In this document: piece after piece, positions 8,649-54,831 of the stretch | Numbering within the stretch: position 1 is the first letter of the stretch | How the letters are laid out: the number at the start of each line of letters is the position of its first letter | Assembly (NCBI RefSeq): GCF_015291625.1 | Contig: NZ_CP030047.1 | Location: forward strand, 3,658,001-3,722,000 | DNA from: Bradyrhizobium sp. CCBAU 53421 | GTDB taxonomy: Bacteria; Pseudomonadota; Alphaproteobacteria; Rhizobiales; Xanthobacteraceae | DNA length: 64,000 bases | Direction of reading: 5' to 3' | The notes under the pieces: generated by a model | The model's input: the letters and a program-made list of their open reading frames with translations, nothing else | What the model was told of the DNA's origin: nothing | Databases searched by the model: none | Program-made: the position numbers and the translations under genes

Positions 8649-8695
8649 GCATCCCCCGAACATTTGCCTGTGGCTGTAGCCTCGAGCCGCGGCTC

Positions 8696-9505: not shown

Positions 9506-9731
9506 TTGGCCCTCTCTTGGCGGCGTGATGAGGAGCCCGCTCGGCCTTTGCAAGAAGCAGGCGCTTGATGCTACGCGCGAAGGTGCGGAGCTGAGTCCCG
9601 GCGTTGAGATGCCGCCGTGCTTTGAATGCGTTGGTGAACCAGACAGCGGCATCATCGGAGCGGCGGTGTTGCGCGTGCCGCCAGATCTCGGCCAAGTCAT
9701 CGCCGTGAATATCATTTCGATCGGGCAACAC
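9495..9731 (-). CDS. Small unknown protein (78 aa), GTG start
   Basis: From GTG 9731, preceded by AAGGA with good spacing, the frame reads MLPDRNDIHGDDLAEIWR, then HAQHRRSDDAAVWFTNAFK and a basic tail. A string of charged helices with a DLAEIWR-A-x-x-RR pattern resembles short rhizobial proteins of unknown role that I have seen near transporters, but I cannot name the family. Its last codons overlap the start of the TauE/SafE gene, so it would be the first gene of that operon. The lack of an ATG and the small size keep confidence moderate. Confidence 0.45.
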   Translation of the reverse strand: MLPDRNDIHGDDLAEIWRHAQHRRSDDAAVWFTNAFKARRHLNAGTQLRTFARSIKRLLLAKAERAPHHAAKRGPNAT

Positions 9732-13519: not shown

Positions 13520-13527
13520 GGACAACT

Positions 13528-19500: not shown

Positions 19501-22500
19501 TACGGCGACACCTCGGCGACGTCCTCAACCCTGACGGGCTCGAATACTTATACCACGAGTGCAAATGGGCTTATCTCGACGCTAACAACATCGACGGGTA
19601 TTACGGACACCAAGGTCGAATTCGCCAATTCAAATGGAAGCTATGAGTGGTCTCGAAACGTGACCGCTGGAAGCGCAGCAGCAACTTACGGCTGGGTAAA
19701 TGGCAGCTCGATCCACAGCGTTGACGCCAACGGCATTGATACCTGGTCATTCCTCGACGGCTACGGCGATCCGCTGACGACGGTCAAGATCGATATCACG
19801 ACTGAGAAGCAGGATATTGCGATCGCGAACGAACTGTTCCAGACGATTCTCGGTCATCCGATGGACGACTCTGAAACAGAGTTCTTCGGACAGTACATCA
19901 AGAACGGCGTCTTCGATCGCGAGCAGCAGGCTTACGATATCGTCGCCGACTCGCAGGAGTACTCAGACAATTACGGAGTAAAGTTCACAGTCAACGGCCA
20001 GGCCGGGGTCCTCTATCAGGGCTTCGATATCTCAGCCGCATTCGAGAATGCTCTCGGTCGCTTGCCCACGGCCGAGGAAATGGCGACGTTTGGTGCGTAC
20101 TTGACTGTGCCGAACTCCGCCGGGAATCCGGAGAATTTCGATGATCTGGCGACGATGGTTGTCGCACTCGCACAGTATGCGACCGATCTCGGTGGCAACG
20201 ATAATCGAACTCAGTCCGATCCCGACGCGCATCTGGTCTCAACCGCGCCTTCCTGGATTAGCCCCGCTTCCAGTGCCGTGCAGATCGGAACCGCTGGCAC
20301 CTACAGCTATAGCAGCACGTTTATCATCGACCTGAACGCGACCACGGCGAAGGGCGTGGCAGCAACCATCAACGGCAGCAACGATATTATCATTGCTGGA
20401 ATGAATAGCAGTCTCACGGTATCAGGATTCAATAACTCGATTGACGATTCCAATGGAACCGCAACGATCGCGACGTCTAACGCTTCGATTCTCATCGAAT
20501 CCGGAGGCATTGCGACGATCTCCGGCAACAATAATCAGATTGCCCAGGTGGGCCCGACTCAGGTCACGTTAACGTCGGGTACGGGGGACGTCATCTATGT
20601 CGGTGCCGGTGACGCAGTACCAAATCCCAACTACGCAGCCTCCTACTCGAGTACGACTGCCTCGAATGCCTCAATCACGTTGGGCTCAGGCATCGGCACT
20701 AGTGCGGCTCACGACCAGGTCTCCGGAAGCGGCGACTCCGTCACGTTGACGGGAAGCGATATCATAGACATCTCTGGCAGTGGCGACGCCATCAATGTGC
20801 TCGGCAGCGGCGACACGATTTCCGTAAGTGGTGCCACCATTTCCGTGGCTGGCGGTCTCAGCGATGTGGTGATCAACGGCAACAACGATGTGGTCACGAT
20901 AGCTGCCGGGTCAATTGTACAGCTGACAGGATCGAGTGATTCTGTCACCCTCGGGAATAGCGATACAGTGAGGCTGAGCACAAGCTCAGTGATTACATCG
21001 CGCGGGTCAAACGACACCGTTACGGTGTCGAACTCTCCCGCGGTTGGCGGACCTGTGGAGACCGTGGCCAACCTGACGGCAACTCACGGCCAGAGCTTTG
21101 CAGGCTCGTCACTGTTCAGCTACAGCGATCCGGTTGGCAGCGCTGCGACGCAATACAGCGTCTGGGATACTGGCGCCGGTGGCGGCTACTTCATGCTGAA
21201 TGGCGTCGCGCTACCGATCAATCAGGGCAACATCATCACGGCCGCGCAGCTATCCCAGTTGACCTACCAGTCCGGCTCGGGAGCCGATACGTTGTGGGTG
21301 CGGGCCAACGACGGATGGGCTTGGGGCGCCTGGTCGAGCAGCTTCACGGTGACGGCGCCGACGGACACAGGGCCCGTGGAGACCGTAGGCAACCTCGGCG
21401 CAACGCACGGCCAGAGCTTTGCCGGCTCTTCACTCTTCACCTATAGTGATCCCTTTGGCAGTCCTGCGACGCAATACACCGTCTACAATAATGGCACTGG
21501 TGGCGGCTATTTCACTCTGAACGGCGTTGCGCTTCCCGTGGGGCAGGGCAATGTCATCACAGCCGCCCAGCTCTCGCAGCTGACCTACCAGTCCGGATCG
21601 GGGACCGATACGTTATGGGTGCGCGCAAATGACGGAACGGTCTTGGGAGCGTGGTCGAACAGCTTCACGGTGACGCCGCCAACGGATACCGGGCCTCAGG
21701 TGCTCGTTTCCAGCTACGCAGTAGCTCACGGCCAGATTATGACACCATCTTCGCTATTCACATACAGCGATCCATTTGGCAGCGCGGCTACTCTGTACGA
21801 CGTGTGGGACACCGGCGGCGGTGGCGCCCATTTCGAGCTGGATGGGGTCGCGCTCCCCGTCAACCAGGAGAACATCATTACGGCCGCGCAACTTTCGCAG
21901 CTGACCTATCAAATTGGTTCAGGTGCAGACACCTTGCAGGTGCGGGCCAATGACGGAACGGTTTGGGGAGCGTGGTCGAGTAAAGGTACGATGACAGGAC
22001 CGACCGACTCGGGGCCCGTGGAGACTGTCGCCAATGTCACCGCAACGCATGGTCAGAGCTTTGCGGGCTCGTCACTGTTCACCTACAGCGATCCATTCGG
22101 CAGCGCGGCCACTCAGTACGATGTGTTTGACACCGGCAGCGGTGGCGGTCATTTCGCGTTGAACGGCGTTGCGCTTGCTCTCAATCAAGACAACATCATC
22201 ACGGCCGCGCAGCTCTCGCAGCTGACCTATCAGTCCGGATCGGGAGCCGACACCTTGTGGGTACGTGCGAACGACGGAACGGTATGGGGAGCCTGGTCAA
22301 ATAAGATCACGGTAACGGCGCCAACAGACGCCGGGCCGGTGGAGACCGTCGCCAATCTGACGGTAGCCCACGGCCAGGCGTTGTCTCCATCATCGCTGTT
22401 CACCTATAGCGATCCACTCGGCAGCGCGGCCACTCAGTACGATGTGTGGGACACCGGCGCCGGTGGGGGTCAGTTCATGTTGAATGGCACGGCGCTACCT

Positions 22501-23661
22501 ACCAATCAGGGCAACATCATCACGGCCGCGCAACTTTCCCAGCTGACCTATCAATCTGGTTCAGGGGCTGACACTCTGTCGGTGCGCGCCAACGACGGGA
22601 CGGTTTGGGGCGCATGGTCGAACAACTTCACGGTGACAGCCCCGACTGACGCCGGGCCCGTAGAGACGGTCGCCAACGTCACGGCAACCCATGGTCAGAG
22701 CTTTGCCGGCTCGTCGTTGTTTACCTACAGCGACCCGTTTGGTAGTCCTGCGACCCAGTACCGTGTTTGGAACACAGGTACCGGTGGAGGACATTTTGTG
22801 TTGAACGGCGTGGCGCTCGCCGCCAACCAAACTGCTACCATCACGGCGGCTCAGCTCGCGGAGCTGACCTATCAGTCCGGCTCGGGCGCGGACACCTTGC
22901 AGGTACGGGCCTACGATGGCACGGTTTGGGGAGCTTGGTCGAACACCTTCACGGTGACGGCTCCGAACGACGCCGGCCCCGTCGAGACGGTAGCCAACAT
23001 CAAGACGACGTCGGGGCAAGTCTTCTCCGCTTCATCGCTATTCACCTATAGCGATCCATTTAGCAGTGCAGCGACCCAATACGATGTGTATGACACCGGC
23101 AGCGGTGGCGGTCATTTCACGCTGAACGGCGCAACGCTCGGTGCCAATCAGGATAATATCGTGACGGCCGCTCAGCTGTCACAAGTGACCTATGTGGCTG
23201 GTCCGGGAACGGATACCCTGTGGGTGCGCGCCAACGACGGAACGGTGTGGGGCGCGTGGTCGAACAGCTTCACGGTAAGCGATCCGACTACAATCGGCGC
23301 GGATGAAACCCTCGAACTCGCATCGGCCAGCTCGGCTGCCATCTCCTTCAAGGCTGCGACCGGGACCTTGAAGCTCGATAACTCGGCGAGTTTCAGCGGA
23401 ACGGTTGCCGGTCTGACCGGACAGGACGGCATCGACTTTTCCGATATTGCATTTGGCTCCATCCAGACACCGAGCTTTCACGGCACCGCTTCTGGTGGTT
23501 CACTGTCCGTGACTGACGGCACTCATGCGGCCAGCATCGCGTTACTCGGCAACTACATGGCGTCAACATTCGCAACTTCGAGCGACGGACATGGCGGAAC
23601 GCTTGTCACCCAGGCGTCAACGATCAATCCGATGCAGATCGCCTCGCCGCAGCACGCATGA
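13528..23661 (+). CDS. Giant repeat protein (3,377 aa) with NlpC/P60 peptidase and adhesin-like repeats
   Basis: Residues 1-160 are an NlpC/P60 cysteine peptidase, with C44 in GIDCSNLV, H101 in FKGHMGIV and H116 in GVGHFFG as the expected triad. A linker follows, then a segment typical of rhizobial RTX-type proteins (VVLDLSGKGVNI) with an EF-hand-like loop DTNHDGSLDSGD near 510. Residues about 570-2090 are Thr/Ser-rich repeats with recurrent NADGS-x-TET and SANGL motifs. A DUF4214-like part (about 2090-2195) precedes beta-roll-like Gly/Ser repeats. Seven 107-residue repeats follow from about 2508, and a C-terminal domain (ATGTLKLDNSASFSG) resembles type I secretion signals of this group. On reading I found no cysteine other than C44. 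It is probably secreted and surface-bound. ATG 13528 (after GAGGACAACT) is preferred over a TTG 12 bases upstream. No secretion ABC gene is in the window. Confidence 0.88.
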   Translation: MADANILSAAQSQFGGGNYVYLSPHGNGTVYVNAASGYGLGIDCSNLVQQSLQAAGYDIKYLATSQIMTSPGTLNPPAAPYYSTVNLSDLQTGDILMFKGHMGIVQDYDPDTGVGHFFGSQTSTGPAVASFSTNGTTVDPSTGRPIYWGNGVQVLGAIEPKTPSNNVQGGDVGTQPGGPIGSTPYFSQTLAADQVLGMPASNTAANVLSSEVANGLTDSSGRWTAPVPYLDQSVAAQQLSLNELPPSLSPTALTDDFQQSALRATDVSFLESTVNPPSANGIDGSSAGSVTLESGTSPVAADFNALGQNWSADTSAMTYGINLALPASPILATETNTQLLSNIGARGLDNLSTTQSSNATTQTAVTTTTANDYVSQDFNALQESVSVTTASSDTGSVGSQSGSTVSDVINTYSNASFSYGGFGDDFSFGPVVLDLSGKGVNITQLSSSNMFFDVTGSGIENQTAWAGAGSGVLFYDPTGAGQLTQANQVIFTDWDPSATSDMQALLDVFDTNHDGSLDSGDTNFGKFFVTVTNADGTQSVQSLASLGITSINLNADASSVSLPDGSAITGETTYTTSSGTTRAAATVSLAADTSGYVVTTTTTSNADGSTTIDNSASNTDGSLDHQRILNTLISSSTSSGVTTTATDKVLTTVNNGGVVVTLQVDNTVASTNGVTTETVTNYSAGTITSTGELTGAGTSGSEKLNSTTTTTTVTSGGTTVTILRDQLGGGWTTQQEVDSTTSTGGPASYVVSNLNPDGSVSDVTSTSVTNGGFTRTVTDLIDGNSALSTTTVDSTVVGSGGTRTETIVASAGTTVTSSVQIVTVTTSNTVTRTTASDLTDGVTLDRTSVAQTVTSSSGSTITQSDSSANGALLDQTITTETPQSSGGLVTSATSSILDNGAFVVSGTEITTISNAGPTQTTTVVNKSADGTLQSESITSTALGSAAKTVTTYATGDGKVSQYEAVTVSGGTTTDTLESLNGDGSMNTEAVTITTSGGLAKTSESDNTGLTSGSAALFDHITTDNTVTSGGTSTETITGYGASTSYKIDEKQIVVTSGGLETIVLSAFTSNSLAGSGTWDRVTTDLITINNGGSVTETTTTTDGAGHILQTVQKNSSANRQNTTTTTTLGTTGLVKQVETVTIESNGTVQDQTVSFDQQGDVLGATVTTTTADGLTRTVQHDVQGQTATAYSSSGLSFDVQTTDTTVINGDGSRAETVNKTSRNGTLLATTTTSSSANGLSITTNANPYATAHYATKTTNTTTLNADGSSTVTAAEYNYNQGLIESSQTVTSAGGLATTVNHDLNGDGVIDQATTDVKTINADGSRTETVTDYTGSAGGVVRDVTTTQSGIIVAGAGLETVVTRQSNGSVSTYQVETILPNAHGVISDTTNYYSSLGGPLLLSTTVTSSANGLSKTKATAVNGDTTTDFQTNDTIVLNADGSQTETVITANRNGLIDERVTTTSANGLSKTTQVDANGAPINLVGPASPVFNLVTTDNTVLNASDGSHTETVTDTNTNGTVFEQTVTTTSADQQSVVTNRYLNETGAISGLDQVETTQTQADGSTIDVTSSYGPTAALVGSVVKTSSGNGLIGTTTFRNGVGATVDIQSNTTTYDANGDGGTLNDLEDADAVNSTTTLTSSVETQTSGNGQAKTTIIALTGALSSSISSNIVAVANASTAISDAGVTTQTTADVIEGVTTDTITTVTSANRLSQTTSTILAGDLSAFIVQQSTTALDGSQSRITSYYDPAATSLLLEQTAINISYDGRTTTTTRQTAYDQLNQSIINDTSNDPGDTGTYTPTFSTAYNVETDTYVENADGSTTETLSGTGSFGAPAFQQVETVATNADASKTTTVQDYDGVGVLGRQAAAEISANGLVQGFAFSTTGQDSAANLKLAAAELVNGTAVLPALVGGDIIGVDSTTLNADGSKTELIETGYGNSLGNLRSKTVITTSANGLVTTTDVDNDGNGIYEQIDTTTKAPDGSSVSVYDYYGDTSATSSTLTGSNTYTTSANGLISTLTTSTGITDTKVEFANSNGSYEWSRNVTAGSAAATYGWVNGSSIHSVDANGIDTWSFLDGYGDPLTTVKIDITTEKQDIAIANELFQTILGHPMDDSETEFFGQYIKNGVFDREQQAYDIVADSQEYSDNYGVKFTVNGQAGVLYQGFDISAAFENALGRLPTAEEMATFGAYLTVPNSAGNPENFDDLATMVVALAQYATDLGGNDNRTQSDPDAHLVSTAPSWISPASSAVQIGTAGTYSYSSTFIIDLNATTAKGVAATINGSNDIIIAGMNSSLTVSGFNNSIDDSNGTATIATSNASILIESGGIATISGNNNQIAQVGPTQVTLTSGTGDVIYVGAGDAVPNPNYAASYSSTTASNASITLGSGIGTSAAHDQVSGSGDSVTLTGSDIIDISGSGDAINVLGSGDTISVSGATISVAGGLSDVVINGNNDVVTIAAGSIVQLTGSSDSVTLGNSDTVRLSTSSVITSRGSNDTVTVSNSPAVGGPVETVANLTATHGQSFAGSSLFSYSDPVGSAATQYSVWDTGAGGGYFMLNGVALPINQGNIITAAQLSQLTYQSGSGADTLWVRANDGWAWGAWSSSFTVTAPTDTGPVETVGNLGATHGQSFAGSSLFTYSDPFGSPATQYTVYNNGTGGGYFTLNGVALPVGQGNVITAAQLSQLTYQSGSGTDTLWVRANDGTVLGAWSNSFTVTPPTDTGPQVLVSSYAVAHGQIMTPSSLFTYSDPFGSAATLYDVWDTGGGGAHFELDGVALPVNQENIITAAQLSQLTYQIGSGADTLQVRANDGTVWGAWSSKGTMTGPTDSGPVETVANVTATHGQSFAGSSLFTYSDPFGSAATQYDVFDTGSGGGHFALNGVALALNQDNIITAAQLSQLTYQSGSGADTLWVRANDGTVWGAWSNKITVTAPTDAGPVETVANLTVAHGQALSPSSLFTYSDPLGSAATQYDVWDTGAGGGQFMLNGTALPTNQGNIITAAQLSQLTYQSGSGADTLSVRANDGTVWGAWSNNFTVTAPTDAGPVETVANVTATHGQSFAGSSLFTYSDPFGSPATQYRVWNTGTGGGHFVLNGVALAANQTATITAAQLAELTYQSGSGADTLQVRAYDGTVWGAWSNTFTVTAPNDAGPVETVANIKTTSGQVFSASSLFTYSDPFSSAATQYDVYDTGSGGGHFTLNGATLGANQDNIVTAAQLSQVTYVAGPGTDTLWVRANDGTVWGAWSNSFTVSDPTTIGADETLELASASSAAISFKAATGTLKLDNSASFSGTVAGLTGQDGIDFSDIAFGSIQTPSFHGTASGGSLSVTDGTHAASIALLGNYMASTFATSSDGHGGTLVTQASTINPMQIASPQHA
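15240..19790 (+). repeat. Thr/Ser-rich degenerate tandem repeats in the giant gene
   Basis: About 1,500 residues made of divergent units with recurring SANGLS-x-TT and VLNADGSQTET elements, separated by DxNGDG-like turns. The DNA is rich in acg/acc codons. The units differ in length and sequence, unlike the later 321-bp array, so they are old. The NGDG turns may bind calcium. Confidence 0.75.
21049..23295 (+). repeat. Seven tandem 321-bp (107-residue) repeats
   Basis: Units begin at 21049, 21370, 21691, 22012, 22333, 22654 and 22975, each marked by a G-P-(V/Q)-(E/L)-(T/V)-V start, and are exactly 321 bp apart. Each contains SSLFTYSDPFGS, GGHF-x-LNGVAL, ITAAQLSQLTYQSG and GTVWGAWSN elements. 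Length is kept without any indel while the sequence varies, so the fold, probably a beta-sandwich adhesin module, is under constraint. Confidence 0.92.
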
Positions 23662-42205: not shown

Positions 42206-43651
42206 CCCTGCAAATTCGTTTTGTGGATTCCTGTCCACTGTGAACCGTGCTTCTGTGGTGCACCGGAGGGACGATGCGGCCGAAGAAGCACAAGACGACA
42301 GGATCGAACGATCTGTTCCGGGCACGGTTGGACCAGATCATCAACATGAAGCACGAGCTGGTTCTGCTTGCCGGCAAGATCGACTGGGACTGGATCGACA
42401 GCGAGATCGCCCCGCTCTACAGCGAGAATGGCAGGCCGGGGATCGAGACCCGCTTCATGATCGGGCTGCTGTTGCTCAAGCACATTTACGGGCTGTCCGA
42501 TGAGGGGGTGTGCGAGCGCTGGGTGCACGATCCGTACTTCCAGTTCTTCACCGGCGAAGAATTTTTCCAGCACGTTTTCCCGCACGAGCGCTCGGACCTG
42601 AGCCATTGGCGCAAGCGGCTCGGTGACAAGCTGGAGCGGTTGTTGGCCGAGAGCCTTCGGGTGGCGCACGAGACCGGTGCGTTGCGCAGCCAGGACCTCA
42701 AGCGGGTCACGGTCGACACCACAGTGCAACCGAAGGCCATCAGCTTCCCGACCGATGCCAAACTGCTGCATGCAGCGATCCGGGGGCTGAACCGCCTGGC
42801 GAGGAAACACGGGGTCAGGCTGCGGCAATCCTATTGTCGCGTGGCCAAAAGCGCGGCGATGATGGCGGGCCGTTACGCTCATGCCAAACAGTTCAACCGG
42901 CATCAGCGGCAGCTGCGTATCCTGCGCAGCCGGCTGGGGAGGATCATCCGCGACATCCGCCGCAAGATCGAAGGCCAGGCGACGCTGGAGGAGGCGTTCG
43001 CCCTCCCGCTTGGCCGGGCCACGCAGATCCGCTCGCAGCAGCAGCGCCAGCGCGGCTTCAAGCTTTATTCTTTCCATGCCCCGGAGGTGGAGTGCATCGG
43101 CAAGGGCAAGGCCGCCGCGCCTTACGAGTTCGGCGTGAAGGCCTCCATCGTTACCAACAATCGCCGCGCCCCCGGTGGCCTGTTCGTGCTGCATGCCAGG
43201 TCGCTGCCCGACAACCCTTACGACGGTCACACGTTGCGGGACGTTATGGACCGCACCGAGACACTTACCGGCTGTGCGATCGAGCGGGCCTATGTCGACA
43301 AGGGCTACCGCGGCCACGACGCGCAAAATCCCCGTCGCGTCTTCATCTCCGGCCAGAAGCGCGGTGTCTTCGGCGCCATCAAGCGTGAGCTGCGCCGCCG
43401 CTCCGCCATTGAGCCCATCATCGGACACCTCAAAGCCGAAGGACACCTCGGCCGGTGCTACCTCAAGGGCCGCGCCGGCGATGCGGCAAACGTCGTCCTC
43501 TCCGCCGTCGGACACAACCTCCGTCGCATCCTCGCCTGGTTCAGAGAACTTTTGCGCCTATTGTTGGTCTCGCTCTGGCGCACGCTCAACTCTCCAGCTC
43601 AGCTCAATCCGGCTTCTTAACGGTCGACTATTTCCGGCACTTTTTGCAGAG
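42206..43651 (+). mobile_element. IS5-type insertion sequence, ends tentative
   Basis: One intact transposase gene. CCCTGCAAA at 42206 and, read inwards from 43651, CTCTGCAAA are the best inverted-repeat tips found, with one mismatch in nine. No clear target duplication flanks them, so the borders are provisional. It separates the AddAB-like pair from the ATP-grasp cluster. Confidence 0.6.
42274..43620 (+). CDS. IS5-family DDE transposase
   Basis: A 448-residue transposase with DDE_Tnp_1 organisation. The N-terminus (HELVLLAGKIDWDWID, then GRPGIETRFMIGLLLLKH) is the DUF772-like domain. First catalytic Asp is in VTVDTTVQPKAI, the second in AYVDKGYRGHD and the Glu in SAIEPIIGHLKAEGHLGR. All are present and the frame is open. 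I start at ATG 42274 (MRPKKHKTTG) rather than nine codons upstream, because of the GGAGGGACG before it. Long ORFs on the opposite strand here are shadows. Confidence 0.93.
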   Translation: MRPKKHKTTGSNDLFRARLDQIINMKHELVLLAGKIDWDWIDSEIAPLYSENGRPGIETRFMIGLLLLKHIYGLSDEGVCERWVHDPYFQFFTGEEFFQHVFPHERSDLSHWRKRLGDKLERLLAESLRVAHETGALRSQDLKRVTVDTTVQPKAISFPTDAKLLHAAIRGLNRLARKHGVRLRQSYCRVAKSAAMMAGRYAHAKQFNRHQRQLRILRSRLGRIIRDIRRKIEGQATLEEAFALPLGRATQIRSQQQRQRGFKLYSFHAPEVECIGKGKAAAPYEFGVKASIVTNNRRAPGGLFVLHARSLPDNPYDGHTLRDVMDRTETLTGCAIERAYVDKGYRGHDAQNPRRVFISGQKRGVFGAIKRELRRRSAIEPIIGHLKAEGHLGRCYLKGRAGDAANVVLSAVGHNLRRILAWFRELLRLLLVSLWRTLNSPAQLNPAS

Positions 43652-43695: not shown

Positions 43696-44439
43696 TTATT
43701 CAACCGTCGAATCCAGTCTTAGTACAAGATCGTCGCCCTGAGTGCACATCTGAAGCTGCATTTTTGAATCGTCGCGCATAATGAATAAATACCAATACAA
43801 GGCACTGAATCGTCGCGACAACTGCCATCCAGATATCTTAAGCCCCGCCGCCTCAATCATAGGCTTGAAAGTATCGATATGTGAGCCTTTCAAATTTTCG
43901 TTTAAAACTATGAGACCATCTCGCTCAAGATGTTTGCGTATGCCCGAGAAAAACTGGCGACGCAGACGCCACTTGTCGTCTAGATATATACGCGGCTCGA
44001 GATTGTGGCTGTACTCCAGCATGTTGCGCTCAGCAAAGTGAGGTCCAGTACCAACGACGAGGTCGAACTTCTCAGATTCTGGCAATGCCAAGAGCCCGTC
44101 GCCTTGATAAATTGTCACACGATCTTCGATATCATTCTTGCGCGCGGTATATTGCGCGGCATCAATGGCGGGTTGATAAATATCGGCAAGACACAGGCTC
44201 TCGCAAATTTGACTAGCCAACATCGAATATCCGATAAATGCAGGACCGGAGCACCATTCAAACATGCGTCGAAACCGGGGCCTCACTTCAAAGCAACTGA
44301 ACAGATCGAGAAAATCATCGGCTAGATAAACGCCGCCGCCATTTGCATCTTCAGTATAATAGACGGAAACGCCATTCCAAGATTTGAACTTGTAATCGTG
44401 TGCAATCGATTCAGGCGCGGATGTTGTGGGAGGAGGCAT
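43696..44439 (-). CDS. Class I SAM-dependent methyltransferase
   Basis: About 247 residues. The SAM-binding motif I is MFEWCSGPAFIGYSML (acidic Glu, G-x-x-x-G), motif II LCLADIYQPAIDAAQ and motif III VTIYQGDGLLALP. Where HemK/PrmC enzymes have NPPY, this has VVGTGPHF, so the acceptor is probably not a glutamine amide. ATG 44439 follows AGGACA; a TTG further upstream at 44502 is possible. It lies 105 bp downstream of the 98-residue ORF on the same strand, as the last gene of the ATP-grasp cluster. DNA here is AT-richer than the neighbours, suggesting foreign origin. A tailoring role in a small-molecule or peptide pathway is inferred. Confidence 0.8.
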   Translation of the reverse strand: MPPPTTSAPESIAHDYKFKSWNGVSVYYTEDANGGGVYLADDFLDLFSCFEVRPRFRRMFEWCSGPAFIGYSMLASQICESLCLADIYQPAIDAAQYTARKNDIEDRVTIYQGDGLLALPESEKFDLVVGTGPHFAERNMLEYSHNLEPRIYLDDKWRLRRQFFSGIRKHLERDGLIVLNENLKGSHIDTFKPMIEAAGLKISGWQLSRRFSALYWYLFIMRDDSKMQLQMCTQGDDLVLRLDSTVE

Positions 44440-44606
44440 GGTCGGTATGTGTCCTGAAGTTATCGCGGCACTCAACGTAAAGTCTGACTTATCCGGTGCC
44501 AATCTACAACAATTGATAGTTTTCGAGTCGAAACAAGGATCGATCAGGGGCTCCGAGGTTCTAACCGCTGCAGCATGGAAAATTCAGTGGCGGGGCGGCA
44601 GTTGTG

Positions 44607-44903
44607 CTAAGTAGCCGCCGCCGCCGTCCCAAAGATAGGCGAACGACCCGATACGGCGGTTGCTCCGTCGGCGAGCGTATCGAGGGGAGCATTCGGATCG
44701 GGACAGCCGCCGGGTAAGAGAAGACCAACTTCCGTGGCAGAGACCACGGTGGATGGGCTCTTACCCGCGGTGCCGACTGATGCAGACGGCGGCACGTCAG
44801 CTAGATTCCTCGATAACTTGGCGCAGCACAACGGAGGAGCGCCAAACGGCGCGCACGAATCGATAAGCTTACGTTTTTCTGGCGTCGGTATTTTCGTGAT
44901 CAC
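44607..44903 (-). CDS. 98-aa Pro/Ala-rich four-Cys ORF coupled to ATP-grasp gene; possible peptide precursor
   Basis: The GTG start at 44903 overlaps the TGA of the Ddl-like gene (GTGA), with GAAAGAG in place as ribosome site. The peptide has a charged leader-like start (MITKIPTPEKRKLIDS), cysteines at 17, 26, 27 and 67, a Ser/Thr/Pro-rich middle and a Gly/Ala-rich end (SGRSPIFGTAAAAT). It matches no domain I know. Size, lack of a fold, coupling to an ATP-grasp ligase and a methyltransferase just after fit a ribosomally made precursor. An alternative is a decayed or small accessory protein. The opposite strand also has short ORFs, so the coding claim rests mainly on the overlap. Confidence 0.5.
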   Translation of the reverse strand: MITKIPTPEKRKLIDSCAPFGAPPLCCAKLSRNLADVPPSASVGTAGKSPSTVVSATEVGLLLPGGCPDPNAPLDTLADGATAVSGRSPIFGTAAAAT

Positions 44904-45991
44904 AATGCTCTTTCATACTGACCAGAATACACGGCATCGATTTCGTTGATTAATGACGCTCTTATTAGGAGCAGCAGCAATTCCGGGTATGAAAAGCCTA
45001 ACGTCAATCCTCCCTTCGCAAAGGTCGCCGCCGAACTTAGACTTGGTAGAGTATTGACTTCCAAGAAGTGAGCGGATTCATCATCCGATACTATAAAGTC
45101 GACCCGGCCGTGGACAGTGAGCTGGAGTTGCTCCGCGATCGAGCGTGCATCCTTCATACATTTCTCAGCCGCCAATTTTGAAAGGCGAGCAGGACAATGA
45201 AAACGAACAGCAGCGCCCGAGCTTCCACCCTCCAATTTGCTGATCTCGTCATAAAACGCGCGCTCTGTCTCGACTTCGATTGGCTCCGTGCAGAACATCT
45301 CTGTGCCGAGCTGTATCAGTGAGACAGTGCAGACGCGCCCTTTCACAAACGATTCGCAGAAATAGGGCGTCTTCGGATCGACAGTTGAAATCCGAGACAC
45401 GACTTCGTCCACGTTGTTGCACTGTGCCATTCCCACGCTACTGCCGCCAGTGTCACCCTTGAGCATGACGGGGAAAGTCAGGCCGCTGCTTGAGATGAGG
45501 TCACCAATAGCTTTTGCCGAACGAGGTAGTAGCGTTGTCGAACTGGGAGTTGAAATACCCAAGGACCGTACCATTGTTTTGCAAGTCGTCTTCGAATTGC
45601 AGATGGCACTCGGCAATACAGATGGTCCTAGATAGGGGATACGTAGATAGTCGAGAAGACCTTGCATCTTTCCGTCCTCCCCGTGAGGGCCGTGGATCAT
45701 GATCAGGGCAAAGTCAATATTCTTGAGCCGATCAATGAAGCCAAACAGATCAGGATTGATGATCTCAATACTGAACCCCTCTTCGGCGAGGGTCGAAGCT
45801 ACACTTGTGACAGACATTCCTTTCGCTGGGCCAGATAGCAGAGCGCGGCGGTAATATGGATGATCTTCTGGAGATATCGGGCCGTATATAAGACCAATCT
45901 TTAGTTGTCTTACGAATTCAAGCACTTTTGGTACGATGGCCTTCTCATTCTCTACACGCTTGTTGTCTGGAAGCATCTGATAACTGAGCAT
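44900..45991 (-). CDS. ATP-grasp ligase, D-Ala-D-Ala ligase-like
   Basis: A 363-residue ATP-grasp enzyme. The Ddl signature is clear: IHGPHGEDGKMQGLLDYL, then PYLGPSVLPSAICNSKTTCK; ATP-binding VMLKGDTGGSSVGM; and the magnesium end DFIVSDDESAHFLEVNTLPS, keeping Asp, Glu and Asn. The usual NTxPG is changed to NTLPS. The first 35 residues are extra compared with housekeeping Ddl. It should join two amino-acid-like substrates using ATP. GAGTGAAACA precedes ATG 45991. Being outside the cell-wall cluster and next to a small ORF and a methyltransferase, it is more likely a specialised-metabolism enzyme or a resistance-type ligase than a cell-wall one. Confidence 0.85.
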   Translation of the reverse strand: MLSYQMLPDNKRVENEKAIVPKVLEFVRQLKIGLIYGPISPEDHPYYRRALLSGPAKGMSVTSVASTLAEEGFSIEIINPDLFGFIDRLKNIDFALIMIHGPHGEDGKMQGLLDYLRIPYLGPSVLPSAICNSKTTCKTMVRSLGISTPSSTTLLPRSAKAIGDLISSSGLTFPVMLKGDTGGSSVGMAQCNNVDEVVSRISTVDPKTPYFCESFVKGRVCTVSLIQLGTEMFCTEPIEVETERAFYDEISKLEGGSSGAAVRFHCPARLSKLAAEKCMKDARSIAEQLQLTVHGRVDFIVSDDESAHFLEVNTLPSLSSAATFAKGGLTLGFSYPELLLLLIRASLINEIDAVYSGQYERAL

Positions 45992-46559
45992 TGTTTCACT
46001 CCTCGGAAGTCCTGTTTGGCGAGGTTCATCACCGTGTCGTCAGCGATCGGCATGCCGCCAAAGACGCTGTGCTCATCTTTCTAAAGGATACAGCGCTCTG
46101 CTTCTTTCGGAGCCAGCGGATTGTGTCTCCGCTTACCTTGTTCGGACCTAGACGTGTTCAACCGGAGACGTCTGAAAAGCAGAACAAGACGCGATCGAGT
46201 GCGGCGCGGCGACGGGAGCGTGCTCGTTGTTGCAGCGGAGTGCCGTAACGATGCGAGGCCGGCGTCCAGTGTCGAGCGACCAGTTCTCCGCACCCATCGG
46301 CAATTTTTGGGTTCACCGCTTGCCGCCCACGCGATTCCATTGGCAGTTCGACCAACAATGCACCAGCAAATCAGCGACCGCCTGGAAGTGCCCGGAGGCT
46401 TACGTAGCACTTGTAATGGTATCATTACATGAGCACGTCCACTTGCCAAAAGCCTATTGCAAGCAAACTGCAAAGCTATGGTCTGTGGTGACCGCAGCCG
46501 TTGCATAACGGCCCCTCACTTTCGTCATCGCGGCGATTGTGGGCCGCGCGGCTTTGGTC
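45992..46559. other. Intergenic within the ATP-grasp cluster
   Basis: No convincing ORF. Minus-strand frames (for example 46158-46358) lack coding character. The left part should carry the promoter of the Ddl-like operon, a possible target of the regulator gene that ends at 46560. Confidence 0.4.
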
Positions 46560-47252
46560 TCAGGTCAGCGCGTAACCGACGCCGCGGACAGTCCGGATCA
46601 GCTTGCGCCGGGGCATCCCGTTGAGCGCTCGGCGTAGACGCGCTACATGGACATCGACAGTCCGCGAGCCTACGAAAACATTCTTCAGCCACGTGGCGCG
46701 AACGAGTTGGTCGCGGGTGAAGACGCGGCTTGGTTCGCTCATTAGATAGCGCAGCAAGCGGAATTCGGTTGGCGCAAGCCGGAGCTCTTGCTTGGCGCGA
46801 CAGACGCGAAAGCCGATGGGATCGAGCTCGATATCCTCGAAGATCAGAAGCTTTCTGGCGGACGGCCGCGCCAATATCGAGTGCAATATGCCGATGAGGC
46901 GTTCCGGCGGCGTGGCCCGCGGCAAGACTTCGAAGCCTTCTTGCTGCAAAGTGAGATTGCCGTGATCTTGCTGGATTGCATCACTTATCAAAATTACGAT
47001 CGGCCTTTCGAAACTACAAAGCAGATTAAATTCGCGGAGTGTGCCCTGTGTGAAGTCGACTTGGCTGCAGTCGATCAGAATGATATCGGGCAGAGCCTCT
47101 TCTAATGCTCGTTTACACTCTTCATCGAAGATGACGACACGAAGCCCGAAGCCGGCTGTCTCGAGAATATATCGCAGCAGGCATACATAATCCCTGTCGG
47201 TCCCGTAATATAGGATTATTGGTCGCAACCGACCGGACAGCTCGTCTTGCAT
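46560..47252 (-). CDS. OmpR/PhoB-type response regulator, atypical receiver
   Basis: From ATG 47252 the protein is 230 residues, the standard length of the family; the frame runs further to a GTG at 47417. The N-terminus is receiver-like (IILYYGTDRDYVCLLRYILETAGF, then PDIILIDCSQ), keeping the phospho-acceptor-like Asp but lacking the usual acidic pair at the start, and the rest is diverged. The C-terminus is a full winged helix: ELRLAPTEFRLLRYLM, FTRDQLVRATWLK, RTVDVHVARLRRAL and RTVRGVGYAL. No histidine kinase is adjacent. It is the likely regulator of the ATP-grasp cluster, possibly phosphorylation-independent. Confidence 0.85.
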   Translation of the reverse strand: MQDELSGRLRPIILYYGTDRDYVCLLRYILETAGFGLRVVIFDEECKRALEEALPDIILIDCSQVDFTQGTLREFNLLCSFERPIVILISDAIQQDHGNLTLQQEGFEVLPRATPPERLIGILHSILARPSARKLLIFEDIELDPIGFRVCRAKQELRLAPTEFRLLRYLMSEPSRVFTRDQLVRATWLKNVFVGSRTVDVHVARLRRALNGMPRRKLIRTVRGVGYALT

Positions 47253-47660
47253 ACCCGCTAAACTATTAAGCGTGACAGACAACACGGCTTCCTCTTCATC
47301 GGCATATCGGTACTCGCGAAGCGCGCTCTTCGCCAGGCGAGCTCTCCCCGTCCGGTCGACCAGTATAGAGAGCGTTTTTACTGAGTAAGCCCTACCCAAT
47401 GTGATAGGGGGATGCACAGGATGGCCGTAAAGTCGGTGCGGCCATTGAGCTTGGTTCGTGCCGCAAGGGAACGAGTCAAGATAATGACGTCACGAACAAA
47501 AGCGACGGCAACGCTGCTGGTTGGCCGGGTGTGAAGATCGTGCGGACCGGGCCTCTGGTCGATGCGGGCCTCGCGGATGGCGAGGTCGCCCGCGCCCTCA
47601 TTACTTTGACGTTGCTAGTCCTCCAACCGAGGGCTTTGGCGAAACAAGCAAAGCTGCCGC
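47253..47660. other. Intergenic within the ATP-grasp cluster
   Basis: Upstream region of the response regulator. Short frames on both strands are unconvincing. The 165 bases upstream of 47252 could still be coding if the GTG start at 47417 is used. Confidence 0.4.
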
Positions 47661-48929
47661 TCAATGAAGCAACGGAACGCCTATGGATGCCTCGAAGCGG
47701 CGGAGGACGGTATTGGCTACCATATTCGCCTCCGTAAAGGAGTCCGCTCGCAAATGGTACCAGCCGAGAATCTCTTTCCGTCGGACTTCGATGCTCGGTT
47801 CGAGGCGATGTGGATCGAACTCGATCAAATTTTCGCTATATTCCGTCAACCACGACAGATCAATCCGGTCAGCGAGCGCCGCGTCGCGGCCCGGCATGAT
47901 GTTGCGGGCAGAGACGTAGCCGGAATACTGCGGTGGGACGTCGCGGATTGGAAAGCCAAGATGAATATCCAGCAACCGCTCCTGAATCCATTCACCCGTC
48001 AGGTGGTGATATACTGACGGCATAACGCCACCCATAACGCGGGAATTCATCTCAACCAGGACGGGGCCTTGTTCCGTTGCAATCATCTCAACGTGAAAGA
48101 TCCCCATGTCGAAACCCAGCTCCCGGGCCACTGCTTCCGCATACTGGAAGCAAGACTTGATCTGATCCTGTGTGAGATCGGCGGGCATCGACGCTCCCAT
48201 CTCGATACATTCGTCTTCGCGTGCGCGTGGGTGATCGGACACCATAAAATGATAGAATTTTTCGTCCCGCACACCAATCTCCGCAGATACCAATGGGCCG
48301 ATAAGATGCTCCTCGACGAGGATTCCTTTGCGAAATTGGGCTTGCAGGTGTACAGGCAAGGCATCAATGCCGGATAGGAGGTTCTGAGCCGCACGTTCGG
48401 CATCGGTTGACGTTGGTGCGACCGCGGCGAGCAGACTATAATAGCCAGTCCGCGGCTTGACCACGACTGGGACACCGATGGCTTCCGCCGCTGCGCGAGC
48501 CTGTCGCGGCGTCACCACCTGACGGAATCTGGGGCAGCGCAGGCCAGCGGATTGGATGATTTCGCGCGCGCGAGCCTTGTCGCGTGCCGCCGCTACCGCA
48601 GACGCGCTTGTAAACGGAATACTTAGCCGGGCACAGACACGGGCTGCGACGTCAACGCACGCCTCGAATTCGGAGATGACGGCGTCGATCGGTGCGATTG
48701 CGGCGATCTGCTGCAAGCTGCGTAACACTGCCGTCTCTACGGTGGTGGCCGAGATCGTGATGACTGTGTCTAGTGTCGAAACTATTCGCTGGACGCGCTC
48801 CGTCCGGAAACGATCGTCGCGATAGCCAGACCTGATCAAGGAGACGCGCAATCCCCGTTGCTTGGCGAGGCGCATGGTCTCAACGCCGCCCCAAGTGGTG
48901 TCGATGAAGACGATATGCATCTCCTTCAT
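47661..48929 (-). CDS. ATP-grasp ligase, L-amino-acid-ligase/carboxylate-amine ligase-like
   Basis: A 422-residue ATP-grasp enzyme. It begins MHIVFIDTTWGGVETMRLAK (Rossmann-like preATP domain), then ISEFEACVDVAARV and AARDKARAREIIQSAGL. ATP-binding segments are PVVVKPRTGYYSLL and LVEEHLIGPLVSAEI, with the metal site GIFHVEMIATEQGPVLVEMNSRVMGG. The layout fits BacD/YwfE-type dipeptide ligases and related enzymes that join a carboxylate to an amine through an acyl phosphate. The start overlaps the upstream gene by 4 bp (ATGA). Substrates are unknown; a second ligase in the same region suggests a short peptide or amino-acid conjugate. Confidence 0.85.
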   Translation of the reverse strand: MKEMHIVFIDTTWGGVETMRLAKQRGLRVSLIRSGYRDDRFRTERVQRIVSTLDTVITISATTVETAVLRSLQQIAAIAPIDAVISEFEACVDVAARVCARLSIPFTSASAVAAARDKARAREIIQSAGLRCPRFRQVVTPRQARAAAEAIGVPVVVKPRTGYYSLLAAVAPTSTDAERAAQNLLSGIDALPVHLQAQFRKGILVEEHLIGPLVSAEIGVRDEKFYHFMVSDHPRAREDECIEMGASMPADLTQDQIKSCFQYAEAVARELGFDMGIFHVEMIATEQGPVLVEMNSRVMGGVMPSVYHHLTGEWIQERLLDIHLGFPIRDVPPQYSGYVSARNIMPGRDAALADRIDLSWLTEYSENLIEFDPHRLEPSIEVRRKEILGWYHLRADSFTEANMVANTVLRRFEASIGVPLLH

Positions 48930-49432
48930 TCCGCACGCATAGCGAGTTCTGGCTGGACGACATTCAGACGGATGACGGCGCCGGCCTGCCGGCTAAGTGC
49001 GAGTACGCTTTTCTCGATGACGGCGACGAGGCTCTCGAGAACAGCACATGGCTTTCGTGTCTCCTGGCCGCGTTCAAACTTTCCCAACAGAAGCAACGCA
49101 CAACTCTTGTCTGGTCGGGCACAGAAGACTAAGGCGCCGCCGCCCTCCAATTCACGAACCAGAAAGGCGTCGTCAGAGGCGATGCCTGAGACTCGCTGAT
49201 GGGCCCGGCTCAGCCTCGACCGGATCGCGGCGTAGTCCTCCCGAGATTCGACAACGCCGGCTAGGCACAGATACGGCAACTTTGCCGTAGTCCTCAGCCA
49301 GACGTCGGTTCCGTCTGCCTTATGAAACACCTCGACCTCCATTCCAATTCTAACAGCCGTGAGGCTTTTGAGCGGCACACCTCCTCCGTTGCCTGAATTG
49401 ATCTCCAATCCGAACCCTGCAGTTCCCCGCAC
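48926..49432 (-). CDS. Unknown protein (up to 168 aa) coupled to ATP-grasp gene
   Basis: A beta-rich protein with VRIGMEVEVFHKADGTDVWL, then LEGGGALVFCARPDKSC and SRQAGAVIRLNVVQPEL. I recognise no family. The GTG at 49432 has no good ribosome site; a GTG at 49378 lies just after GGAGGAGG and may be the true start. The stop overlaps the ATP-grasp start, so the two are made together and probably work together, for example as a substrate-binding or second catalytic subunit. Confidence 0.6.
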   Translation of the reverse strand: MRGTAGFGLEINSGNGGGVPLKSLTAVRIGMEVEVFHKADGTDVWLRTTAKLPYLCLAGVVESREDYAAIRSRLSRAHQRVSGIASDDAFLVRELEGGGALVFCARPDKSCALLLLGKFERGQETRKPCAVLESLVAVIEKSVLALSRQAGAVIRLNVVQPELAMRAE

Positions 49433-50060
49433 ATAATCTACAGATAGATCCCGCGCGGATTATTCGCGTTGTGCGCAGCCGTGCAGCCGCAAGTGATGCC
49501 TACGTTCAAGCATCTTGTTCATAGAGTCGGACGATATTTTTCGTACGCCCATGCGTCAAGAAGAGCACCAGCCATTTACGATAACTTATCCTAGTCTTTA
49601 CAATCCCGACCGCCGTCTTCGGAAGTGTCCTCGGTGTCGATGGTCGCACACGACAACGCTGGCATCGCAGAGTTGGCGCGGATCAGACTGGTTGTGGCTT
49701 TGCGCTCGAATTTATCGGTAGCGGAGTGTCGGCGTTCTTGTACGCTAAATGGCGGGTTTGGCGCGAGGAACGATCGGCGGATCTGCTCGTGTCGCGTAGC
49801 TGTCCGCTCGTTGCAGAGGGGGCGGCATAGGTCGTGTGGGATATCTCAGCGACGAGTGAGATCGGCAGATATTGTATTCGACACGGCGGATCGGCGATCT
49901 TGGCACGGGCGTCTTCCAGATCGATGAACAGGTCCCTTTGAGCAGTTCATCGCGCGTCCATCATTGACTGGGAAGTAATGCCAATTGGGCGGGGGAGGGG
50001 CGCGCACGCCTGGACCAGGCAGGGTGGAAGTGAGGAGAAGAACGAAATGATCGCATCCGT
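49433..50060. other. Intergenic, no gene recognised
   Basis: Contains the upstream region of the ATP-grasp operon and decayed sequence next to an IS66 fragment. ORFs here are short and without ribosome sites. Confidence 0.4.
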
Positions 50061-50216: not shown

Positions 50217-50675
50217 TTTGGGCTTTGGCGATTGGCAAAATTGCACGTGGGTTGAGTGTCCGCGCCGCGTCGAGCGCTGCCCACCACTTCGAAGTATGCC
50301 CTGCGGCAATGCGACCAGCTTGCGTCAGGGCAAGTCCCCTGGATGGAGGGAAGAATGGAATCTGACATCACTCACAGTAACCCAGAGGGTTGGACGTCTA
50401 GCCGGCAAAGGCAGAGCCGGCCAGTCGAAGGCGCGTCCTGCATGGGCGAAGGTAACGGTAACGTCACTCGTGAAGCGCCGACCGCGGGTAGGGCGACCCA
50501 GTGGCTAACCTCCAAATCATGGCTTCGCATTGTCAGATCCAGAGGCACCGTCGGAATGAATCAGCGGCACCGAGGTGATGCCGCTGATGTCGTCCTCCTC
50601 GTTGATCACGACCTACGCTCGAGCACTCGGTGCCGCCCTTTAGTCCAGCCCTTGATTGATTCAGCCCCTGAGAAC
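50217..50675. other. Region without a supported gene
   Basis: A plus-strand frame (50256-50798) is open for 180 codons but overlaps the porin end and has irregular composition. I see no domain and treat it as chance. Confidence 0.35.
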
Positions 50676-52894: not shown

Positions 52895-53080
52895 ATGAAC
52901 AATGAACAGATCAGCGGCAAGAAGCAGCGCAGCGCCGGCAACCCCGACATTGAGTTGGGTACCGCTTTCGATGTGCCAGTGACCTTCTTCTATGACAGCG
53001 ACAATAAGGCCTCCCCGGCCTGTTTCCGCGATGTCGCTTTTCGGCTTCGCGACGTGGATGCCTACAAATGTTTCCTATAA
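52895..53080 (+). pseudogene. Possible XRE-type regulator fragment
   Basis: The frame from ATG 52895 contains ELGTAFDVPVTFFYDSD, like the end of rhizobial Cro/CI-type proteins (A-x-x-LDVPVSFFYD). The DNA-binding helices before it are absent. The remaining tail is not conserved. Probably a gene remnant. Confidence 0.35.
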
Positions 53081-53338
53081 TCTGCCACGGCTCGTGCTCC
53101 TGCGGTCAGGATCGGTTCGGTACGCCCGTGTAACCGTCGGACACGCAGTGTAGGGGAGAGCCACCGCACCGGAAGAGAGACGGACATGCGGCCGTACGTT
53201 CTAGTCTAGCCGCAATCTCCAGGGCATGAGCGCGACAGCTAAACCATCAAACCATTGGCTGGTCATGCTGCCAACGAAGCGCCGGTGCCGCAGTATTTGC
53301 CGCAAGCCTGTTTGGGCGGGCAGGTAAAGGGAAGCTGT

Positions 53339-54226
53339 CTACCTCTCACAAGGGAGCATCTTGCGAGTAGAGAACTCACTCTCAATTAGGAATACCGCGA
53401 CAACGCATACCAGAAGTCCTAGAGTTGCGCTGACCGTCGTCGGTTCGCCGAACATCAAGTACGCCCATACAGCGGTGACTGGCGGAGTAAGATAGGTCAG
53501 CCTTGCAACGTGACTGGCCGTGCTCTGACGCAGGCAGAGCCAGTAGAGACCATAACCTGCTCCGGTCGTGACGACGACAAACCAAAGCACGATAGTCGCA
53601 AATTCAGCTGTCAACTGCGGAGCGATCCCTCCGTTCACAATGGCAAGCGGAAGTATGCAAACTGCAGAGACGGCGCTTTGGATCGCCAAGGCTGAACAGA
53701 TGGGCATAGAGTCTGTGGTTAGCTTTGAAATAAGCGTCGCCAACACAAAACATATAGTGGCGACCAGCGCCAATCCGTAACCCCAAACCGGAGCATGACC
53801 GACCGCTCCTCCGGTGGCCAGTGCTATGCCTGCGAGAGCAATCATTAGCCCTAGCCACTGCCTGATAGAGACCTTCTCGCCCAATATAGGCCCCGCAAAG
53901 ATAGCCGTCGCCAATGGCTGCAACGCAGTGATCAACGCGGCCGTCGATGCGGGAACGCCTGTGGCGACGGCCTTTACTGCCAAGGTGATGAAGCAGAACA
54001 TCGCTAGGAAGCCAATGAAAGCTTGATTGGCAATCTCGCGGAGCGCTAGTCCTCGAAGTATTGCCACGGCTAGCCACGGGGACAACAACAGTGCGGCGAG
54101 AGCAAACCGCCAAAAGAGAATCAGATAAACGGACTCGTGGGCATCAATCATTCTGGCGCCGATGAAGCCTGAGCTGGATGCTAGGACCAAGCCAGCTTCT
54201 GCGAGAACTTTCTTGCCGCTTAGCAT
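53339..54226 (-). CDS. EamA/DMT family transporter
   Basis: A 295-residue inner-membrane protein with ten helices in two EamA repeats. Typical marks: LVLASSSGFIGARMIDAH at the N-terminus, STAALITALQPLATAIFAGPILGEKV in the first half and ASHVARLTYLTPPVTAVWAYLMFGEP in the second. DMT carriers export amino acids, metabolites or drugs. Start ATG 54226 is set by GAGGAG nine bases upstream; the frame runs 16 codons further. It sits about 4 kb upstream of the ATP-grasp cluster on the same strand, so an export role for that product is possible but unproven. Confidence 0.9.
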   Translation of the reverse strand: MLSGKKVLAEAGLVLASSSGFIGARMIDAHESVYLILFWRFALAALLLSPWLAVAILRGLALREIANQAFIGFLAMFCFITLAVKAVATGVPASTAALITALQPLATAIFAGPILGEKVSIRQWLGLMIALAGIALATGGAVGHAPVWGYGLALVATICFVLATLISKLTTDSMPICSALAIQSAVSAVCILPLAIVNGGIAPQLTAEFATIVLWFVVVTTGAGYGLYWLCLRQSTASHVARLTYLTPPVTAVWAYLMFGEPTTVSATLGLLVCVVAVFLIESEFSTRKMLPCER

Positions 54227-54831
54227 TCCTTGAACTCCTCGAGGTGATGGGTTGGGCTCCAATCGAATTATCAAGATCGGTGCTCCATCCGTCGATCATC
54301 GAGGGGTTACAGTTTAGTGTCGAAGTGACCAAGAAGAAGGGATAACGGGCCATCTTGTATAGCGACGGAGCATGGTTCGTCCTGATTAGGCAAGTTGCAG
54401 ATTGGCCGACTCAAATAGCAATCTAGCTGCGTCTGCGGCCCGCGTTCTGAACTTGGCAAAACGGCCACCTTGAGACACCGCGCTAGTCGGGCAATCGGCG
54501 GCTGTTCCCAACTTGCGGGTTTGTGGCAGAGTGGGCAATGTTTGTGGCTTTTCACCGTGGTGGTGTCGGGTACGGCGCCGAATTACCCGAGTCGGGGCCG
54601 CTATCAATCAATATAGATTGCCCAATCTTGTATGCTCGTTCCCTTGACGATTGTACAACTACTCGCCTTGTCCAGAGACCCCATAGTGCCTCGTCACATC
54701 ACCGTTGCATAGCAAGGGCATGGATGCACCCCTAGCGCAAAACGGTGCCTCGTTGGCCACCTCGCGGTGGGGCTGTCCACGTGCGGTCGGGCAGGTCGGA
54801 GCACATTCAGATAGGTATCGGAGATTAACGC
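54227..54831. other. Divergent intergenic region before the phosphonate locus
   Basis: Promoter region for the EamA gene (left) and the phosphonate locus (right). No ORF is convincing. I looked for a Pho box near the right end and found only a weak, imperfect match around 54692-54712. Confidence 0.4.

Follow-up and report, generated by a model that had tools for sequence, protein, structure and literature searches.

u168, a small gene found in rhizobia beside ATP-grasp ligase genes, and its possible place in a symbiosis-associated amino-acid-conjugating pathway

The formation of peptide or amide bonds through acyl phosphates is established for the L-amino acid ligase BacD and for Ddl. Two ATP-grasp enzymes related to these types are encoded in a 64,000-nucleotide stretch of Bradyrhizobium sp. 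CCBAU 53421 (hereafter the window), which covers positions 3,658,001-3,722,000 of the single 9.26-Mb contig of this genome. One of them, an L-amino-acid-ligase-like enzyme of 422 amino acids (aa), overlaps a small gene here called u168. This overlapping pair is real and forms the solid core of the cluster, and u168 is the marker gene of the system. The enzymes themselves are of known kinds, and such a pathway is named by none of the papers listed in literature searches. What appears to be new is the family of u168, the fact that it seems restricted to rhizobia, and the linkage of its partners to NifA. The main new result is a connection with symbiosis and nitrogen fixation, which was absent from the initial annotation; that annotation had proposed a cluster of six minus-strand genes.

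The relatives of the 422-aa ligase in the PDB include BacD and the L-amino acid ligase BL00235 (E 9e-11 to 8e-10). The window ligase shares with them the ATP-grasp domain, matched above cut-off, and the metal-site motif E-x-N-x-R, retained as VEMNSR (E-x-N in Ddl-type enzymes). It differs by its overlap with u168, by having no LAL_C2 domain match, unlike the ligase of S. americanum, and by scores under the cut-offs of the 25 NCBIfam models listed. The top score was 114.8 against 625 (NF002563), with 44.2 against 850 bits for BacD, 42.7 against 840 for DdaF and 30.8 against 248.3 for PylC. The second enzyme, of 363 aa, shares both Pfam Ddl domains and the E-x-N motif with D-Ala-D-Ala, D-Ala-D-Lac and D-Ser ligases, and differs from them in the Lys-Tyr loop and in NCBIfam scores below the cut-offs. 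A similar logic is found in pyrrolysine synthesis, where the radical SAM enzyme PylB, the ligase PylC and the dehydrogenase PylD resemble the lysine-2,3-aminomutase (KamA), ligase and dehydrogenase of R. leguminosarum loci. The window ligase is far under the PylC cut-off, and PylB and PylD belong to other radical SAM and dehydrogenase families than the u168-locus enzymes.

With rhizopine systems the likeness is one of concept, and R. leguminosarum has ABC transporter and peptidase genes near its ligase genes. The u168 loci differ from these systems in possessing amino-acid ligases and amino-acid-forming enzymes, with no inositol genes seen. The mos/moc compound is L-3-O-methyl-scyllo-inosamine; production of such a compound in nodules under symbiotic control is described in PMC3538637. 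For Paraburkholderia phymatum, PMC8305402 reports log2 changes of -8.45 and -8.21 in a nifA mutant for the Ddl-like Bphy_7633 and the MATE gene Bphy_7634. The likeness here is a NifA-dependent Ddl-annotated gene with an exporter at the neighbouring locus number, set beside the window gene by annotation. The system differs in belonging to a beta-rhizobium and in the behaviour of its ATP-grasp gene Bphy_7724.

u168, its ligase partner and the related loci

Most u168 homologues begin with MFLKADG at the position of 49342, 30 residues into the 168-aa open reading frame (ORF) of the initial annotation, and the start of u168 was therefore moved there, most likely giving a protein of 138 aa; one homologue (L053) has no start codon at this position. 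The protein showed no Pfam match above cut-off and no NCBIfam or PHROG match, and a model of it was too weak for use. Relatives were found in 11 of 72,556 plasmid records, every one of rhizobial genera, and in 14 loci among 84,980 species genomes, belonging to Mesorhizobium, Bradyrhizobium, Rhizobium and Microvirga. The species genomes were scanned with two patterns derived from the alignment, and these counts are lower bounds. Among 195 genus genomes and 397 sampled order genomes u168 was found once each, both times in its own genome. Between the window copy and nine others, the pairwise nonsynonymous rate (dN) was 0.21-0.38, and the synonymous rate (dS) was about 1.1-1.7 in seven pairs and saturated in the other two. 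By these estimates u168 is under purifying selection.

The u168 and ligase genes are full-length open frames and probably translationally coupled because of their 4-bp overlap. Relatives of the ligase at E 1e-10 were present in 17 of the 195 genus genomes.

The comparison set consisted of the window and 25 other u168 loci (11 plasmid records and 14 genome loci), the ORFs of which were clustered. An ATP-grasp ligase gene or a relic of it was present in 15 of the 25 loci, KamA in 12 and a Ddl-like ligase in four. The 15 ligase loci include five Microvirga relics, one gene cut by the contig end (L063) and one ligase situated inside a 926-aa protein with a lyase domain (L060). Further partners, recognised by annotation, Pfam or clustering, were SHMT, DapF, LysA, saccharopine, D-amino-acid and Glu/Leu dehydrogenases, and ornithine cyclodeaminase. 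An M81 peptidase, an ABC substrate-binding protein and ornithine cyclodeaminase are situated near u168 in R. leguminosarum-type loci, and none of them was recognised beside the window copy.

Homologues of the genes grouped by the initial annotation thus do co-occur in other genomes, and the cluster idea holds in part. The u168-ligase pair recurs and the Ddl-like gene sometimes accompanies it, while the 98-aa ORF, the methyltransferase and the regulator do not belong to the recurrent set; the last two had no match in any of the 25 loci.

Symbiotic context of the u168 loci

nodA was detected in all 14 genomes found via u168 (one copy with an internal stop) and in the own genome of the window. 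nodA was matched in 13 of the 397 evenly sampled order genomes, and nine of these copies, that of the own genome included, were full-length. The difference between u168 genomes and the order sample gave a Fisher p of 2.8e-19, with the own genome excluded and kinship uncorrected.

Candidate promoters were searched with at most one mismatch to the sigma54 -24/-12 consensus TGGCACGN4TTGCW, and a NifA-type site was defined as TGT-N10-ACA within 220 bp upstream. The 405 kb of u168 loci contained 34 sigma54-type sites, 21 of them with a NifA-type site, against means of 4.15 and 0.05 (maximum 1) in 20 dinucleotide shuffles. In a further 185 kb, made up of seven other loci and the window, there were four sigma54-type sites, one with a NifA-type site. 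Four of the 21 combined sites precede pathway genes, namely SHMT and ligase in S. meliloti AK83 (L059) and KamA and ligase in S. meliloti KH35c (L048). The site is 39 bp before the annotated start of the AK83 SHMT, and 35 bp before the longest ORF and about 83 bp before the likely start of the KH35c KamA. For both ligases it is 35 bp before the longest ORF and about 320 bp before the likely start, taken from the S. americanum ligase and, for AK83, from annotation. Three combined sites precede fixA in Microvirga and serve as an internal positive control; the remaining ones precede small or unassigned ORFs. Under the pattern used, the R. leguminosarum fixA sites have no NifA-type site. Sigma54-type sites without a NifA-type site were also found before the SHMT and Ddl-like genes of R. 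sullae and the Ddl-like gene of AK83. We infer from these patterns that the candidate promoters of the relatives would be functional. A perfect -24/-12 promoter with a NifA-type site is also present on the minus strand at position 7985 of a locus of another genome (L051, G182), about 3 kb from a relative of the window ligase (11077-12363); u168 was not found in that genome.

In six Microvirga loci, u168 is joined to the last ~105 residues (~317-421) of a window-type ligase, with identity up to 65%. Five of these relics were found by clustering and the sixth by tblastn, and their deletion edges agree within 2 bp in all six, corresponding to ~47983 and ~49007 of the window. nifV-like, nifW and fix genes (fixB) are present in five of these stretches and absent from the sixth, L070, a 7.2-kb contig. 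As these relics adjoin nif/fix genes, the ancestor of the u168-ligase pair would have been situated in a nitrogen-fixation region.

Protein data from nodules are also available for R. leguminosarum UPM791. In PMC7950203, the lysine 2,3-aminomutase RLV_1884 (375 aa) is listed among the top-50 pea-bacteroid proteins and undetected in vegetative cells (Table 2), and the glutamate dehydrogenase RLV_1887 is higher in pea than in lentil (Table 4). Based on their length, annotation and position next to fixAB, these two would correspond to KamA and the dehydrogenase encoded in the u168 operon (L057). u168 was not found in the available passages of that paper, and RLV_1883, the number guessed for it, is absent from its main text.

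A second locus of the same strain (L075, pRlvC 195000-244900) contains an EctB-type aminotransferase, two ATP-grasp ligases, a Ddl-like gene, a GluTR-N-like hypothetical protein and an MFS transporter, and then ABC transporters and M20, Xaa-Pro and M81 peptidases. Its gene content suggests a system that both makes and uses a peptide; judged from locus numbers, it adjoins nifHDK. RLV_1844, 1845, 1846, 1848 and 1849 seem to be the second ligase/Ddl/GluTR-like group on the plasmid, and RLV_1844, RLV_1846 and RLV_1848 appear in the same top-50 table of PMC7950203. The Ddl-like member of this second group clusters in the tree with L001, the top-scoring Ddl of the window genome, and the group is followed by the MFS transporter and then by the ABC transporters and peptidases. 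Proteins of 312-315 aa lie beside the ligases at L067:6193-7131 and L075:5929-6876, the first with a GluTR N-terminal domain match. RLV_1848 is ascribed to heme synthesis in PMC7950203; the genomic company of such GluTR-like proteins suggests a role in the ligase pathway.

The window copy and its neighbours

An ORF check recovered all six minus-strand ORFs of the initial annotation, both 4-bp overlaps included (Table 1), and its family calls agreed with the matches to ATP-grasp_4 (422 aa), Dala_Dala_lig_N/C (363 aa) and Trans_reg_C without Response_reg (285 aa). The presence of nodA (7.53 Mb) and nifW (8.11 Mb) in the genome makes the host a likely legume symbiont.

Table 1. Features of the window around u168.
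Feature	Coordinates	Strand	Evidence
Transposase ORF (DUF772/DDE), edge of region	42247-43620	+	PF05598 57.8 bits
S-adenosylmethionine (SAM)-dependent methyltransferase-like protein, 268 aa	43696-44502	-	Weak Methyltransf matches below cut-off
98-aa ORF, spurious	44607-44903	-	Antisense to IS5-family remnant
Decayed 3' end of IS5-family transposase	44640-44775	+	blastn and tblastn
Diverged Ddl-type ATP-grasp ligase, 363 aa, candidate second ligase	44900-45991	-	PF07478 79.6 (cut-off 24), PF01820 40.8 (34.6)
Atypical OmpR/PhoB-type regulator, degenerate receiver, 285 aa	46560-47417	-	Trans_reg_C 86.6 bits, no Response_reg match
L-amino-acid-ligase-like ATP-grasp enzyme, 422 aa	47661-48929	-	PF13535 47.2 bits (cut-off 27)
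u168, hypothetical protein of ~138 aa	48926-49342	-	Initially a 168-aa ORF (48926-49432), start moved
Insertion sequence (IS)-related scrap upstream of u168	49724-49975		Mostly 73-74% identity to DNA annotated as IS3 transposase in some records
IS-related scrap	50310-50522		~75% identity to DNA annotated as IS66 transposase in some records

The 363-aa enzyme scored under the cut-off of all 25 Ddl/Van models listed, out of 49 matched (TIGR01205, 153.8 against 245.65; NF002378, 156 against 243). It is 25% identical to L001, which is taken as the housekeeping-type Ddl from its score. It retains the E-x-N motif. The omega-loop Lys-Tyr pair, with a role known from E. coli DdlB, is replaced by Lys-Leu, the window enzyme reading FYDEISKLEGG and the housekeeping-type enzyme FYSYDAKYLDAD. 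The pair is likewise missing from the Ddl-like genes at four other u168 loci. In a nine-row tree the enzyme was separate from L001 and alone on a long branch, with its placement unsettled. On identity, loop and tree it does not group tightly with housekeeping Ddl, and judged by its sequence it differs from that enzyme. Within the tested pool it matched best the u168-locus Ddl-like genes of S. meliloti AK83 and R. sullae (31%), and one of 194 other genus genomes had a relative at E 1e-20 (28% identity). A link of this gene to the u168-ligase pair as a second ligase is plausible.

The small ORF of 98 aa had been considered as a peptide or precursor, a role that fails on the DNA comparisons. No Pfam, NCBIfam or PHROG match was found for it, and tblastn matched it in four of 72,556 plasmid records. 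Most of the match in the best record, Mesorhizobium sp. AR07, is antisense to an annotated IS5-family transposase coding sequence. In blastn, the DNA of the region was 72-75% identical to all four records (L011, L012, L013 and L014) over 89-142 nt, the longest match being that of L012 (72% over 142 nt). The intact transposase protein as tblastn query identified a plus-strand frame at ~44652-44774 with an internal stop. These alignments indicate that the ORF is an antisense reading of a transposon scrap and no gene; owing to this antisense position, the 4 bp that it shares with the Ddl-like gene are a coincidence. The scrap sits between the methyltransferase and Ddl-like genes. A role as precursor of a graspetide or other ribosomally synthesized and post-translationally modified peptide is ruled out by the antisense IS DNA; no other precursor candidate was sought.

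The methyltransferase matches the phage family phrog_35227 (E 3.9e-38). Its homologues were present in 11 of 195 genus genomes, own included, one at 71% (G154) and nine at 39-44%, and in none of the plasmid records. The G154 locus showed no match to u168, the ligase, the Ddl-like enzyme or the regulator. The methyltransferase, with its separate distribution, is probably an independent phage- or IS-associated bystander, and its place among the conserved members is not supported. Membership of the regulator is likewise not supported by co-occurrence.

The region had been described as AT-richer, which is correct relative to 36-42 kb (~66% GC) and incorrect for much of the remaining window, at 54-62% GC; the minimum of the window is 51% at ~44-46 kb. 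The IS remnants reported near the cluster are real, comprising the transposase ORF, the IS5-like scrap and the two upstream scraps. Further from the pair, a repeat of ~190 bp at 53010-53198 is 82% identical to two copies in L049, one of which adjoins the methyltransferase relative, and another copy, at 80%, is located at 7.72 Mb of the own genome. At 13516-23661 there is an ORF of 3381 aa with a sub-threshold NlpC/P60 match alone, with an RCC1-like gene before it and an FkbM-type methyltransferase gene after it. Outside the window, the Bradyrhizobium sp. CB82 plasmid (L012) carries at 5762-9622 small hypothetical genes in duplicate next to NHLP bacteriocin export transporters, which may be a cluster for a ribosomal peptide.

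Proposed pathway and alternative explanations

In the pathway we propose, an unusual amino acid would be supplied by a pathway-specific enzyme, in relatives KamA, SHMT, a DapF-like epimerase, or a saccharopine or D-amino-acid dehydrogenase; it is these partner enzymes that suggest unusual amino acids as ligase substrates. ATP-grasp ligases would convert a carboxyl group into an acyl phosphate and couple it to a second amino acid, so that a small conjugate resembling a peptide is formed; u168 would be a constant accessory and the diverged Ddl-type enzyme most likely the second ligase. In several relatives the genes would be turned on with nitrogen fixation through NifA and sigma54, which would place synthesis in nodule bacteroids, and the compound might serve as a nutrient or signal of an opine-like (rhizopine-like) kind. 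At the window copy, the neighbouring atypical OmpR-type regulator may stand in for the missing NifA promoter. The ligase activity, the product, the role of u168, the inclusion of the Ddl-like gene and the activity of the window copy are all presumed in this scheme. That the window pair is part of such a variable, horizontally moved, symbiosis-associated amino-acid-conjugating pathway of legume-nodulating bacteria is our preferred reading, held with about even confidence.

Several observations weigh against it. The u168 loci cannot count as independent, five being alike R. leguminosarum-complex copies and six from Microvirga, and the stretch in S. medicae (L054) is without any named partner enzyme. 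Eight other sampled genomes with full-length nodA (two draws taken as the same genomes) do not have u168, which is therefore dispensable for symbiosis. Only four of the 21 combined promoter sites lie before pathway genes, and these belong to two S. meliloti strains; a long leader (~320 bp) is implied for both ligases. The R. leguminosarum u168 operon has no directly preceding site at up to one mismatch, and according to PMC10228743 no NifA site is evident before the dat gene of the same plasmid. In P. phymatum, Bphy_7724 is up, not down, in the nifA mutant. For the window itself, the ligase is 23-29% identical to other u168-locus ligases (Microvirga relics excepted) and has a long tree branch, and Streptomyces plasmid proteins match the Ddl-like enzyme at least equally (~28-33%), making its u168-locus affinity weak. 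KamA, SHMT and DapF were not seen adjoining the window u168 copy. This copy lies at 3.70 Mb, distant from nodA and nifW, and has no sigma54-like site at fewer than three mismatches; the best, with three, has no NifA site, and one four-mismatch site with a NifA-type site is on the plus strand. With no NifA promoter, a position outside the nod/nif regions and transposon scraps at its borders, the window copy may be rewired or stranded.

The strongest competing explanation takes the genes as chance neighbours or relics: an IS-rich stretch would have gathered a cut-off u168-ligase pair, an unrelated Ddl-like gene, an orphan regulator and a phage-type methyltransferase, with no working cluster here. 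The scraps that flank and interrupt the region are in agreement with it, as are the missing promoter, the distance from nodA and nifW, the separate distribution of the Ddl-like gene, regulator and methyltransferase, and the Microvirga relics of the same pair. Set against these are the full-length frames of u168 and ligase with their overlap kept, the purifying selection on u168 and the metal motifs retained in both ligases. We consider it a serious possibility, which still falls well short of probable. A stand-alone dipeptide or antibiotic-like cluster of the bacilysin or dapdiamide type appears unlikely. Here the peptide of the two ligases would act against competitors, perhaps exported by the EamA transporter encoded at 53339-54274, on the same strand as u168 and about 4 kb away, and shared plasmid ancestry would account for the symbiosis link. 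BacD, L-amino acid ligases and DdaF are indeed among the PDB and NCBIfam relatives. However, no anticapsin-type or 2,3-diaminopropionate genes were recognised among the Pfam-scanned neighbours (not every ORF being scanned), u168 partners elsewhere have NifA-type promoters, and every u168 genome tested has nodA. Very improbable is a cell-wall or glycopeptide-resistance cluster of a Ddl-like ligase and VanR-like regulator: Ddl/Van and VanR profiles do match, but all those listed are below curated cut-offs, no VanS-, VanH- or VanX-type protein was recognised among the scanned neighbours (again not every window ORF), and L001 is another, higher-scoring Ddl in the genome. A graspetide-like cluster, in which the 98-aa ORF would encode the precursor and the methyltransferase would tailor it, had the ATP-grasp enzymes and an overlapping small ORF to recommend it and can practically be dismissed with that ORF being antisense IS DNA.

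The amino-acid-conjugating pathway may be extended to a broader proposal, which is tentative and rather unlikely to hold in full. u168 would be the hallmark of a hitherto undescribed class of pathways confined to symbiosis, with ATP-grasp ligases under NifA control that assemble unusual building blocks such as beta-lysine, D- or diamino acids. The resulting small peptide-like compounds would be peptide rhizopines, produced by bacteroids and consumed or perceived by kin; lineages would swap the amino-acid-making enzyme around a constant u168, and strains would make different compounds.

What bacteroids produce besides fixed nitrogen in the way of private nutrients or signals is an old question, to which rhizopines are among the few chemically known answers. 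The present analysis adds a short marker gene (~138 aa) that seems to occur in rhizobia alone; in named strains that can be cultivated, NifA-type promoters precede genes for the ligase, KamA and SHMT. The pathway could explain the abundance of lysine 2,3-aminomutase, and perhaps of other amino-acid enzymes, in pea bacteroids, and the question of bacteroid products is now directly testable by deletion combined with nodule metabolomics.

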